From the IMG/VR virus record IMGVR_UViG_3300036851_000400, positions 1 through 64,000 of that record: DNA of 64,000 bases. One strand, 5' to 3'. Source of the DNA: a virus. The notes beneath the pieces were generated by a model, which was given only the letters and a program-made list of their open reading frames with translations, was not told the DNA's origin and made no database searches. Shown piece by piece: positions 11,684 to 15,352 of this stretch (the stretch's first letter is position 1; the number at the start of each line of letters is the position of its first letter). The position numbers and the translations under genes were made by a program.

Positions 11684-12065
11684 CCGGCGCTGTGCCACCT
11701 GCGCCTTCCGTCCTGGGACGGAGGCCTCCAGGTCAGAGCTGACCCTGGTCAAGGCGCAGCTCTGCCTCATCTCGGGGACGGTCTTCCACTGCCACGAAGC
11801 TCCAGGATGGGAGCCCTGCGCTGGATATCTGGCCGCCCTTCCTGCGCACCAGAATGAGCCCGAATGGCGCCAAGACTTCGCGCTCGAGATGTTGGATCTG
11901 ATCGAAGAGGCGGAGCGAGCTGGAAGCGGCTGGACGGAGCAGCGAACCATCGAATTTATCCGGGCTGCGGTCGATCGCGTAGACGTTCGCCACGGGGGCG
12001 CCGCCGGCTCTCTGTCTACAGGGGGAGGGGAGCGTGGCTTACAGGGAGGAGGGCGCCATGGCTGA
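11676..12065 (+). CDS. DUF6283-like Cys-rich phage protein, 129 aa
   Basis: N-terminal CATCAFRPGTEAS, then FHCHEAPGWEPCAGYLA gives the C-x-x-C-x-F-R ... C-H ... C spacing of the phage DUF6283 group; a second member lies at 15853. These are probably metal-binding, with no known activity. The C-terminal 25 residues are Gly-rich, perhaps altered by the endonuclease gene that follows and overlaps. Confidence 0.55.
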   Translation: MPDRRCATCAFRPGTEASRSELTLVKAQLCLISGTVFHCHEAPGWEPCAGYLAALPAHQNEPEWRQDFALEMLDLIEEAERAGSGWTEQRTIEFIRAAVDRVDVRHGGAAGSLSTGGGERGLQGGGRHG

Positions 12066-12582
12066 GCCCATTCTATCCGAAGAGACGCTCGCGAGATTCT
12101 GGGCCAAGGTAGACAAAGTTCCGGGCGGTTGCTGGCTCTGGACAGCGTCCGTCCGCAACAAGGGATACGGCGCTTTCGCCTACGTTTCCAACGGTCGCAC
12201 CGTACAAGAGCGAGCCCACCGCATCTCTTGGAAACTCCGGTTCGGGTTCATCCCGCAGGGCCTCTGCGTCCTGCATGACTGCCCAGGTGGCGATAACCCC
12301 CGTTGCGTCAACCCGGAGCATTTGTTCCTTGGAACCAAAGCCGACAACAACCGCGATATGCACCGCAAGGGCCGAAGCGTTCCGGGTGGGACCTACGGGC
12401 GGGCGGGATATGAGCGCGGCGATCGGCACCACGCTGCCAAGCTGACGGCAGAGGGCGTGCGTTCGATCCGGGCTGCCCACTCTGCCGGCGAATCACTGGG
12501 AAGCATTTCGCGGCGCCTCAACCTGGCCATCGGCCACGTTCACCGAATCGTCCACCGGAAGGCATGGAAACATGTCGACTGA
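12058..12582 (+). CDS. HNH homing endonuclease (HNH_3 type)
   Basis: Typical order: GGCWLWTASVRNKGYGAF, AHRISWKLRFGFIPQG, VLHDCPGGDNPRCVNPEH, LFLGTKADNNRDMHRKGR, with the catalytic His in LHDC and the Asn/His of CVNPEH. A C-terminal HTH-like tail (KLTAEGVRSIRAAHSAGES ... ISRRLNLAIGHVHRIV) supplies DNA recognition. ATG at 12058 has GGAGGAGGG upstream. It sits directly upstream of the intein-bearing methyltransferase, so the two mobile endonucleases may have the same target region. Confidence 0.88.
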   Translation: MAEPILSEETLARFWAKVDKVPGGCWLWTASVRNKGYGAFAYVSNGRTVQERAHRISWKLRFGFIPQGLCVLHDCPGGDNPRCVNPEHLFLGTKADNNRDMHRKGRSVPGGTYGRAGYERGDRHHAAKLTAEGVRSIRAAHSAGESLGSISRRLNLAIGHVHRIVHRKAWKHVD

Positions 12583-12597: not shown

Positions 12598-12655
12598 GTC
12601 AGAACCATGGTAACGAAATCGCAAGCTCTACGCGCTCCGTTTCCATGGTTCTGAC
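12598..12655. repeat. 13-bp perfect inverted repeat over the methyltransferase start and shift site
   Basis: GTCAGAACCATGG (12598-12610) and CCATGGTTCTGAC (12643-12655) are perfect reverse complements with 32 bases between them. In the mRNA the left arm contains the ATG start (12607) and the right arm contains the UUC-UGA-C at which the reading frame breaks. A hairpin here would hide the start codon next to the AGAAAGGAGGTG ribosome-binding site, so it may control translation or stimulate frameshifting. Confidence 0.7.
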
Positions 12656-15352
12656 GGGCTCGGCGGTAAGTCCAGAGTCGCGCATCTCGTCTGGGAGCGG
12701 TTCGGGCCGGTCCGGAATTTCGTTGAGCCGTTCTTCGGGAGCGGGGCAGTCCTCCTGGGGCGGCCGGGCGAGCCGTCGATCGAGACGGTCAACGATGCGG
12801 ACGCCTACTTAAGTTGCTTCTGGCGGTCTGTAGCTGCGGATCCCGATGCAGTTGCTCACTACGCTGACTGGCCAGTAAACGAGTGCATTCCGGCCGGAAC
12901 GCTGATAGCAACGCCGTCCGGCTCAGTGCCGGTAGAGGACATCCGGGCCGGCATGACGGTTTTCGGATGGAGTGCCGGAGAAGGAATCGTTCCGACCAGC
13001 GTTGTCGAGATCCGCCAAAGCGTCGCCACCGACTTCGTTCGGATAGGCTCGTTGCGGCTGACGGCGAACCACCCCGTGTGGACCACGGAGAGCGGCTATA
13101 TAGAGGCTGGAAGCCTTTCGGGAGGAATGCATGTTGCGACCCTGGGAAATCTACAGTCTGTCCGATCCGCGCACAGGGGAGATCCGATATATCGGGATCA
13201 CATTCCGGGGCAGGCAGCGTTACAACGAGCATTTGTCGCGCGCCGCAACCGGCGGGCGAACGCATCGGGATTGCTGGGTTCGCTCGCTAGCCTCAGAGGG
13301 TTTGCGTCCGGCGTATTCGGTTCTCGAGGTTGGCAACGGCGAGGGATGGCAGGAGCGGGAGCGATCCTGGATTGCCAAGCACCGCGAGGATGGTCGACTC
13401 ACGAACCGCACGGACGGCGGGGAAGGCCTGCCTGGTTACGTTCCATCGCCAGAGCTGCGGCGCAAATGGTCGAAAGCGCGCCGCGGCGTGCCGTACCGGC
13501 CCTGGCGAAAGCCGCCAATGCTCGGCAGGCGGCAATCGCCAGAGGCGCGGGAGAAGATTCGCCAAGCTGGCACCGGGCGAACGCACAGCGAAGCGACCAG
13601 AGCGAGGTTGTCAGCTCGCCGCAAAGGGCGACCGCTTCCGACATGGCAACGCGAGATGCTGGCCGCCTCACACCGCGGGAAACCCCTAACAGAGGCGCAC
13701 CGTCAGAAGATCGCGGCCACGACGACCAACAGGAAGCCAGTTCGCTGCGTCGAGAGCGGGCAGATCTTTCCATCCATCACCGCCGCCTCGCGAGCCCTGG
13801 GTGTGACGGAGGCCTCAGTGAGTCAGGCGATCAGGAAGGGTTGCCGCTGCAAAGGGAATCACCTACAACTCCAGTAGCCGTATTCAATTTCCAGACGCTG
13901 AGCGGGAACTACTTCGCGGGCGGGATTTTGGTCCACAACTGCGACCTCCATGCCCGCCATCGCTGGCTCGTTGAGACAGCCCGAGAGCGCGTACAGCAGT
14001 GCAAGACAGACCCGGACTTCTACGACGCCAAGGTCGCGGGCTGGTGGGTGTGGGGGCAGTGCTTGTGGATCGGGTCGGGGTGGTGCGCGAGGCCGGAGTG
14101 GACCGGCCGGATGCCGGCGATTGCAGGCCGGGATGGCGGGAGAGGGGCCCACGCGAAATCCCGCAACGTCAACCCCCGAGCCGGCGACACGCTCAACAAC
14201 GAGCACCGGCGCCTTGACCTCGGAAGCGATGGCGACGGGAACGGGATCATCCGGACGCAGCGCAAGAGCGACCCGGATTGGGAGCAGCGCCCCCATCTCG
14301 GGAGCGATGGCCAGGGACAGGGGATCATCCGCAAGCGCCCGATGCTCACGCACCACGGCGGCAACGTGGGCGTCCACAAGCCGAGCCTCGCCATGGCCAT
14401 AAAGCGGCCAGTACTGGCGCACAGCGAGGGAGGCCGCGGCGTCATGCGGCAGGCGCACCAAGTACCGAGCTTGCGCGGAGATTCTGGCGCAGCCGGGCAG
14501 GGAATCCACGCCCCTGGCTTCCAGAGGCGGTCGCAGCAGATCCCCGTCCTTGGCTGTGCGCACGGGAGTGGGCAAGGCGTATCGGCGCACGCAATTCATC
14601 GATCCTCTGGCGGCCTGCAGGCGTACATGCGCGCCCTCTCGGATCGGCTCCGCAGAGTGCGGGTCTGCTGCGGAGACTTCGAACGCATCCTCGGGCCCGC
14701 GGTCACGACCTGCATCGGAATGACGGGCGTCTTCCTGGACCCGCCTTACGACACCGATGCTCGAGCCATCTGCTACTCCCATGATGGCGAGGAAGCCGAC
14801 ACGGGCAAGTCGGTCTGGTGGCGAGCTTACCGCTGGGCCGTCGAGCATGGCGAGGACCCGCTCCTCCGGATCGCTCTCTGTGGATACGAGCACCCGGACG
14901 CCATCTTCCCTGAATCCTGGGAATGCATCCCCTGGAAGGCGTCTGGCGGCTACGGACGGAGCGCGAGAGGGAAGGCCAACGCTCGCAGGGAGAGGATTTG
15001 GTTCTCCCCGGGATGCTTGAAGCCCGCCCGCTTGCCTCTGTTCGATGAGTCTGCCCTCCCTCTTACCTCAGCAGTACAGGGGGGAGGCACAGGCGTCTCG
15101 GCGGCCGGGTCCGCGAGATCTCGATTGCGGGGGCCGCCGGCACCGTCTCCAAACGATGATTTGAAGCAGGCGGCCCACGAGGCTGCGGAGCTTCTGGCCG
15201 ATCCCGAGGCCGGCGAAGTTGAGCGGCTGAATGCGGCGGACGCGCTGCGCCGAGCGGCCGGCCTGCCGGCGGAGCGAGAAGACGACGATGATGAGCCCTA
15301 CGACGACGGCGAACCGGACTTCACCGCGGACCCTCTGGATGAAGAGTTCTGA
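12607..15352 (+). CDS. dam: D12-class DNA N6-adenine methyltransferase, split by a frame break and an intein
   Basis: ATG 12607 (AGAAAGGAGGTG upstream) encodes 15 residues ending in APFPWF and then TGA (12652-12654). The expected GGKSRVAHLVWERFG continues in the +1 frame, which has no upstream start of its own, so a +1 shift at TTC-TGA-C is needed to make a full protein. Motif I is VEPFFGSGAVLL; the catalytic DPPY motif is FLDPPYDTDAR (near 14739). Between them lie the intein (12884-13939) and a long region of repeated GxGI/H-type units typical of this phage family. The extein rejoins as PVNE-CDLHARHRW. The C-terminus is acidic. The enzyme methylates adenine, probably to evade restriction. 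The frame break could be programmed, a mutation or a sequencing error. Confidence 0.75.
12884..13939 (+). mobile_element. Intein in the adenine methyltransferase, 352 residues
   Basis: Starts at Cys1 (CIPAGTLIATPSGSVPVEDI, block A). Block B is LRLTANHPVW (Thr60, His63) followed by GYIEAGSLSGGMHV. The C-terminal block F/G is FNFQTLSGNYFAGG, then ILVHN, with His351-Asn352 and Cys+1 of the extein (CDLHARHR). All expected splicing residues are present, so it should splice. The stretch between blocks B and F, where an endonuclease domain normally sits, is open in the intein frame but reads as featureless Arg/Ala/Ser-rich sequence. In another frame the same DNA encodes a GIY-YIG enzyme. Confidence 0.87.
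13131..13877 (+). CDS. GIY-YIG homing endonuclease nested out of frame inside the intein
   Basis: Frame differs from the intein frame. It has its own GGGAGG five bases before ATG 13131 and its own TAG at 13875-13877, just where intein block F begins. GIY-YIG core: EIYSL (Ile7-Tyr8) and RYIGIT (Tyr20-Ile21-Gly22), then RQRYNEHL, and NRTDGGEGLPGYVPS as in many phage GIY-YIG enzymes. NUMOD3-like repeats follow (SPEAREKIRQAGTGRTHSEA; SHRGKPLTEAHRQKIA). The end is an IENR1/NUMOD1-like HTH (GQIFPSITAASRALGVTEAS). 248 aa. It would spread the intein if it cuts intein-free methyltransferase genes. Confidence 0.88.
   Translation: MLRPWEIYSLSDPRTGEIRYIGITFRGRQRYNEHLSRAATGGRTHRDCWVRSLASEGLRPAYSVLEVGNGEGWQERERSWIAKHREDGRLTNRTDGGEGLPGYVPSPELRRKWSKARRGVPYRPWRKPPMLGRRQSPEAREKIRQAGTGRTHSEATRARLSARRKGRPLPTWQREMLAASHRGKPLTEAHRQKIAATTTNRKPVRCVESGQIFPSITAASRALGVTEASVSQAIRKGCRCKGNHLQLQ

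Follow-up and report, generated by a model that had tools for sequence, protein, structure and literature searches.

Can a phage intein carry its homing endonuclease as a separate gene, written in another reading frame of the same DNA? This question is raised by positions 12884–13939 of a 64,000-nucleotide stretch of viral DNA (hereafter the window; IMG/VR record IMGVR_UViG_3300036851_000400, positions 1 to 64,000), in which all the features described here lie on the + strand. A first reading, made from the sequence alone, had placed there a complete intein within an adenine methyltransferase and, inside it, a full GIY-YIG gene at 13131–13877 in a different frame; both pairs of coordinates held exactly. 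Our analysis indicates that the element is likely a mini-intein in a phage adenine methylase, with a GIY-YIG/NUMOD3 homing endonuclease overprinted in the +1 frame between the splicing blocks. The out-of-frame layout is common to dozens of phage inteins, with other families of nuclease.

The host gene is a D12 class N6-adenine methylase. Its N-extein (12662–12883; PF02086, 1e-5) runs to PVNE, and its C-extein (13940–15352), which begins with Cys+1 and DLHARH and contains the DPPY motif, is supported by 53 related loci and by a weak match to PHROG 56 (DNA methyltransferase). About 50 intein-free methylase homologues from IMG/VR are uninterrupted at the site and read PVNE-x-DLHARH; the window intein is located exactly between PVNE and the variable residue x, which is replaced by Cys. 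The whole intein frame has 352 codons, from Cys1 to Asn352, without a stop (12884–13939). The N-splicing part (blocks A and B, residues 1–88, 12884–13147) includes Cys1 and T60-A-N-H63, and the C-splicing part (blocks F and G, residues 321–352, 13844–13939), which ends in VFNFQTLSGNYFAGGILVHN, supplies His351-Asn352 and is followed by Cys+1. Across 55 aligned related inteins, C1, T60 and H63 never vary and N352 hardly does; the C-block is conserved in 92 related inteins. Pfam returned only weak Hint_2/Vint matches, under the cut-off, for the intein frame. The AlphaFold2 model has a pLDDT of about 95 over most of residues 1–88 (residues 1–80 in the N-splicing part) and 321–352, and below 50 over most of residues 99–293; the predicted intein matched in Foldseek the splicing domains of Mtu RecA, DnaB, gp41-1 and NrdJ-1. 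The model predicts a standard splicing domain flanking a long disordered linker, and this linker is what the nuclease gene encodes when read out of its own frame. A single open frame crosses the intein and both splice junctions, the sole break lying upstream, in the N-extein. The criteria for an intein of the Hint superfamily (splicing motifs, fold and insertion at a conserved host site) are met; splicing activity is inferred.

The nested gene (13131–13877) encodes 248 amino acids in the +1 frame relative to the intein and is preceded by a Shine-Dalgarno sequence, GGGAGG (13120–13125), 5 nt before its ATG. A TAG at 13101–13103 lies in the same frame, and the nuclease is therefore unreadable from farther upstream. 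Pfam identified NUMOD3 (1.6e-10) and GIY-YIG (PF01541, 6.5e-5, 23.6 bits against a cut-off of 22.6), and the PHROG match is to homing endonuclease (PHROG 314, 1.2e-19). By inspection, with I-TevI as the model, the protein has the residues that GIY-YIG catalysis would call for (Y8, Y20, R30, H34, E75/E77 and N92). The presence of a GIY-YIG domain with a NUMOD tail satisfies the criterion for a GIY-YIG homing endonuclease; cleavage and homing are inferred from the family. The AlphaFold2 model of this protein alone was poor (pLDDT 54) and was left out of the analysis. In named phages, distant relatives of the nested gene carry GIY-YIG or Seg-type homing endonuclease annotations, no close relatives of the protein were found in IMG/VR, and no second nested GIY-YIG gene was found among the inteins surveyed. 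The GIY-YIG matches in Psa21-HRN and MK21 were checked for nesting and neither lies within a larger annotated gene, that of MK21 being its own gene annotated as a homing endonuclease.

Most of the sequence-only reading was upheld by these data. The claim of a complete intein in an adenine methylase (Cys1, T60xxH63, His351-Asn352, Cys+1) held by alignment, by AlphaFold2 and by the empty site in relatives; the claim of a GIY-YIG gene in another frame with its own GGGAGG, ATG and stop also held, as did that of an intein frame open across the gene and reading as a linker, which is disordered in the AlphaFold2 model. The proposal that one DNA stretch is read in two frames, as linker and as an independently made endonuclease, is supported, the synthesis of the nuclease being inferred. 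What was missed is a 10-nt break of the methylase frame at 12652–12661, which leaves the start of the gene out of frame with the rest and is considered below.

Is the open intein frame due to chance? With the nuclease protein held fixed and its synonymous codons shuffled, 5.3–6.0 stops are expected in the window's intein frame and none is seen (P = 0.0003–0.0013), and an exact calculation gave a log10P of −2.7 to −2.9. Taken alone the stop-free frame is only suggestive, the DNA being 64% GC, and it is the relatives that make the case decisive. The closest intein found (L055) lies at the same methylase site and is 52% identical in its N-half; it nests DUF559 (1.2e-12), a nuclease unrelated to GIY-YIG, likewise in the +1 frame, at 51% GC and with the intein frame open. 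Queries with DUF559 led to helicase inteins in the Vibrio phages CP-T1, 1.194.O and K391, in Corynebacterium phage phi673 and in Pseudomonas phage MR14. In five named phages (L072, L074, L075, L076 and L077) one continuous gene is annotated and the +1 DUF559 gene in the helicase intein is unannotated; the annotation of the Vibrio lentus phage inspected likewise shows just a single continuous gene there. CP-T1, phi673 and MR14 are cultured, separately sequenced phages with an out-of-frame nuclease. In 13VV501A and K459 the same helicase site is occupied by mini-inteins that lack a nuclease, and terminase-type and other inteins contain HNH enzymes in the +2 frame.

A census combining two profile scans of IMG/VR with the earlier loci yielded 107 usable loci and 93 non-redundant inteins. 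Both scans searched for patterns of the splicing blocks, in one case tuned to the helicase site ...VHNCHH, and the C-block was required to be in the intein frame, which among the loci of one scan step only L107 failed; openness between the splicing blocks was not a criterion. DUF559 was found in 67 inteins (all +1), HNH in 16 (all +2), GIY-YIG in one (+1) and no recognised nuclease in nine, so that a nested nuclease is present in 84 of the 93 phage inteins and fused in frame in none. Not one intein-frame stop was observed across the census loci, against about 600 expected. Relatives in which the endonuclease is always fused in frame would have refuted the sequence-only reading, and the opposite was found: all 84 nuclease-bearing inteins carry it out of frame. 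That reading needs correction in one more respect, as the usual nested enzymes are DUF559 and HNH, not GIY-YIG. The intein N-half and a two-intein profile gave no match in GTDB genomes, and the nrdE intein was not present in the SP-beta region examined.

With the proteins held fixed, 562–624 intein-frame stops are expected for DUF559, 36–41 for HNH and about 6 for the window, and none is observed in any of the three. Ordinary open reading frames of the same loci have 2048 stops in their +1 frame versus 2396 expected, and therefore show no comparable avoidance. When homologous nested DUF559 genes are compared, conservation is clearly higher in the nuclease protein (56%, 44% and 34%) than in the linker (31%, 23% and 19%, respectively), and the differences are concentrated at the third codon position of the nuclease. 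The constraint on the linker appears to be mainly the absence of stops. From the genetic code we infer that in the +1 arrangement an intein-frame stop is spelled by NNT followed by AA, AG or GA; a stop-free frame is easy to keep because the change from NNT to NNC is always synonymous. In the +2 arrangement, by the same inference, stops are spelled by NTA before A or G and by NTG before A, and can be avoided except where Met precedes a codon starting with A. In many DUF559 cases the nuclease ends only 3–5 residues before the end of the intein, and its tail therefore shares codons with blocks F and G.

The nested nuclease starts follow block B. In 79 of the 84 loci the N-half of the intein contains a stop in the nuclease frame, mostly at residues 75–90 and directly before the nuclease start, and a Shine-Dalgarno run of at least 5 precedes 33% of nested starts versus 7% of control ATGs. 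The upstream in-frame stops and this enrichment therefore indicate internal initiation and not a frameshift fusion. We propose that, read in the methylase frame, the disordered linker would join the two halves of the splicing domain, and the precursor could splice. The Shine-Dalgarno sequence and ATG, which are plain in the sequence, would allow a separate endonuclease to be made, its expression being inferred. By analogy with its family, this enzyme would cut intein-free methylase alleles and so copy the intein into them, although cleavage is untested. Selection for splicing appears to hold the intein frame free of stops through synonymous choices in the nuclease, an effect shown statistically for the class.

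The rival explanation that survives best is that the methylase and its intein are dead in the window copy, the GIY-YIG gene being a passenger and the frame being open by inheritance and GC-rich composition. The methylase begins with an ATG at 12607 and reads MVTKSQALRAPFPWF, ending in RAPFPWF and a TGA (12607–12654); the first 15 codons are in a frame different from that of the remainder of the gene. Comparison with about 50 relatives, which read APFPWFGGKSRVA unbroken at the methylase start, identified a 10-nt insertion, TGACGGGCTC, at 12652–12661, after which GGKSRVA resumes in another frame. The intein frame has no ATG, GTG or TTG ahead of 12926. That the window copy is translated in this frame is unproven, and without recoding the precursor may not be made from this copy. 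An 18-nt inverted repeat (12598–12615 and 12638–12655, 94% complementary) folds over the start codon of the methylase (−34.3 kcal/mol, z −4.15). Such a hairpin could block translation, and a template switch at the palindrome is one conceivable, inferred origin of the 10-nt insertion. The frame break and the hairpin of about −34 kcal/mol favour the dead-copy explanation, as does the break in L055 at nearly the same place. Against it, the downstream frame is open for hundreds of codons, the splicing residues and the FxGxG and DPPY motifs are intact, and this openness is unlikely to result from composition. We lean against a dead copy, without great conviction, and it bears on the window copy alone and not on the class. 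The argument for function is carried by the helicase inteins, whose exteins are intact annotated genes.

The same methylase position is broken elsewhere. Three independent frame breaks at PFP(W/Y)F-GGK were seen among about 50 relatives: +10 nt in the window, +5 nt in L055 (at 2709–2722) and +1 nt in L027 and L028, which are both intein-free and are broken at PWF-GGK. The position may be a mutational hot spot, a nuclease target or a recoding site. A programmed frameshift was considered as the cause and is not favoured, as the breaks in the window, L055 and L027/L028 differ in sign and sequence.

A second rival, that the nuclease is made as a fusion to the intein N-half by ribosomal frameshifting from the intein frame, is very unlikely. 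The constant relative frame of each nuclease family would suit a programmed shift. Against it, block B is directly followed by the nuclease's own Shine-Dalgarno sequence and start codon; shortly before that start the nuclease frame is closed by a stop (13101–13103 in the window; 79 of 84 loci have one within the intein); and the frame differs between families (+1 and +2). The third rival, already raised by the sequence-only reading, is that two compensating indels, by mutation or assembly error, moved an originally fused endonuclease out of frame. A fused intein would look so after two frameshifts, and the window is a metagenomic contig without reads. Nevertheless, the nuclease has its own Shine-Dalgarno sequence, ATG and stop; within each nuclease family the relative frame is constant across 83 further inteins of varied phage and sample origin, among them those of the cultured CP-T1, phi673 and MR14, and in none is the enzyme in frame; and the closest intein nests the unrelated DUF559 in the same frame. 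These data exclude the indel explanation in practice. The weakest rival, a group I intron with a GIY-YIG gene and no intein, is suggested by GIY-YIG/NUMOD3 enzymes being typical of such introns (TIGR01453, under the cut-off) and is all but ruled out by the lack of any Rfam intron match in the window at gathering thresholds and by the full set of intein motifs and the intein fold, which fit the boundaries exactly.

Returning to the overprinted mini-intein, a tree of the splicing blocks places the window as sister to L055 (100/90), then to L059 (100/95) and L061 (99/84), all of which have DUF559 in the +1 frame; the tree was built on 126 columns and many of its forks are unresolved. The simplest reading would be that, in an intein whose nuclease was already out of frame, a DUF559 gene gave way to a free-standing Seg-like GIY-YIG gene. 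Such a replacement within one intein lineage is probable, and it rests on one sequence because only one GIY-YIG case was found. A bolder reading is that inteins whose homing endonuclease is overprinted (DUF559 +1, HNH +2, GIY-YIG +1) form a large class found across phages, kept by selection against intein-frame stops, in which unrelated nuclease superfamilies were swapped within one lineage with the frame unchanged, and from which naturally split inteins ("fractured genes") could have arisen. Taken jointly, these propositions could as easily fail as hold.

The nearest precedent in the literature accessible to us is the ShiLan domain, an HNH enzyme inserted out of frame into the methylases of mycobacteriophages (PMC11855218). 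In both cases an endonuclease is hidden in another frame of a phage methylase, the host frame is open and the distribution is patchy. The authors saw no sign of a self-splicing domain and proposed leaderless initiation for their case, which lacks a Shine-Dalgarno sequence, whereas the window nuclease lies inside a complete intein, has a plain Shine-Dalgarno sequence and is a GIY-YIG enzyme. The same paper cites a 2025 preprint by Gosselin, Arsenault and Gogarten (doi 10.1101/2025.01.02.630785) on actinobacteriophage inteins of "non-canonical architecture", and it cites this preprint and Gorbalenya 1998 for overlapping reading frames; the preprint may describe out-of-frame endonucleases. We found no paper on an intein with an out-of-frame endonuclease in the open full text searched, which does not cover most subscription papers and preprints.

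In canonical endonuclease-bearing inteins a homing endonuclease likewise interrupts the splicing domain between blocks B and F, but there the enzyme is normally fused in frame, while in the window it is a separate +1 gene with its own start and stop. Fractured genes (Dassa et al. 2009) are reported to place an independent Vsr-like homing endonuclease gene between split intein halves. DUF559 and the Vsr-like enzymes fall into one broad class of nuclease folds. The window shares with fractured genes the independent endonuclease gene between intein halves, and NrdJ-1 and gp41-1 are among the closest solved folds of its intein; in fractured genes, however, two open reading frames share the host gene and intein between them, and in the window one uninterrupted frame runs through the intein. 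We infer that fractured genes may descend from the out-of-frame layout. The free-standing Seg-type GIY-YIG endonucleases of phages resemble the window gene in their GIY-YIG domain and NUMOD3 repeats but, in the cases inspected, are not nested in inteins.

If this interpretation is correct, the textbook view, in which an intein joins splicing and homing domains in one frame, would change. The mobility enzyme would be made without splicing and each DNA base would serve two proteins, making this an unusually clear example of gene overlap, with one frame under no requirement other than to stay open. It would also suggest how fractured genes and split inteins could arise from intact ones. Annotation pipelines overlook such nested enzymes, as in CP-T1, phi673, MR14 and the Vibrio lentus phage inspected.

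Several further observations concern related loci and the surroundings of the window gene. Two mini-inteins (L128, 2578–3003; L139, 3001–3426) retain only a remnant of an out-of-frame DUF559 gene, which is consistent with decay of the nuclease after fixation. In L071 (4001–4890), a contig of 31% GC, the N- and C-halves of an intein are in different frames and several hundred bases apart, with no recognised nuclease between them; this may be a fractured gene or an intron. In the window, a free-standing HNH endonuclease gene (12034–12582; PF13392 HNH_3, 1.8e-8; PHROG HNH/endonuclease families to 4.9e-28) lies directly 5' of the methylase, separate from the intein, and might be a second homing gene at the locus. 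Finally, the C-extein contains at 14040–14560 a repeat-bearing expansion (LGSDGxGxGIIR) that is seemingly missing from most relatives.
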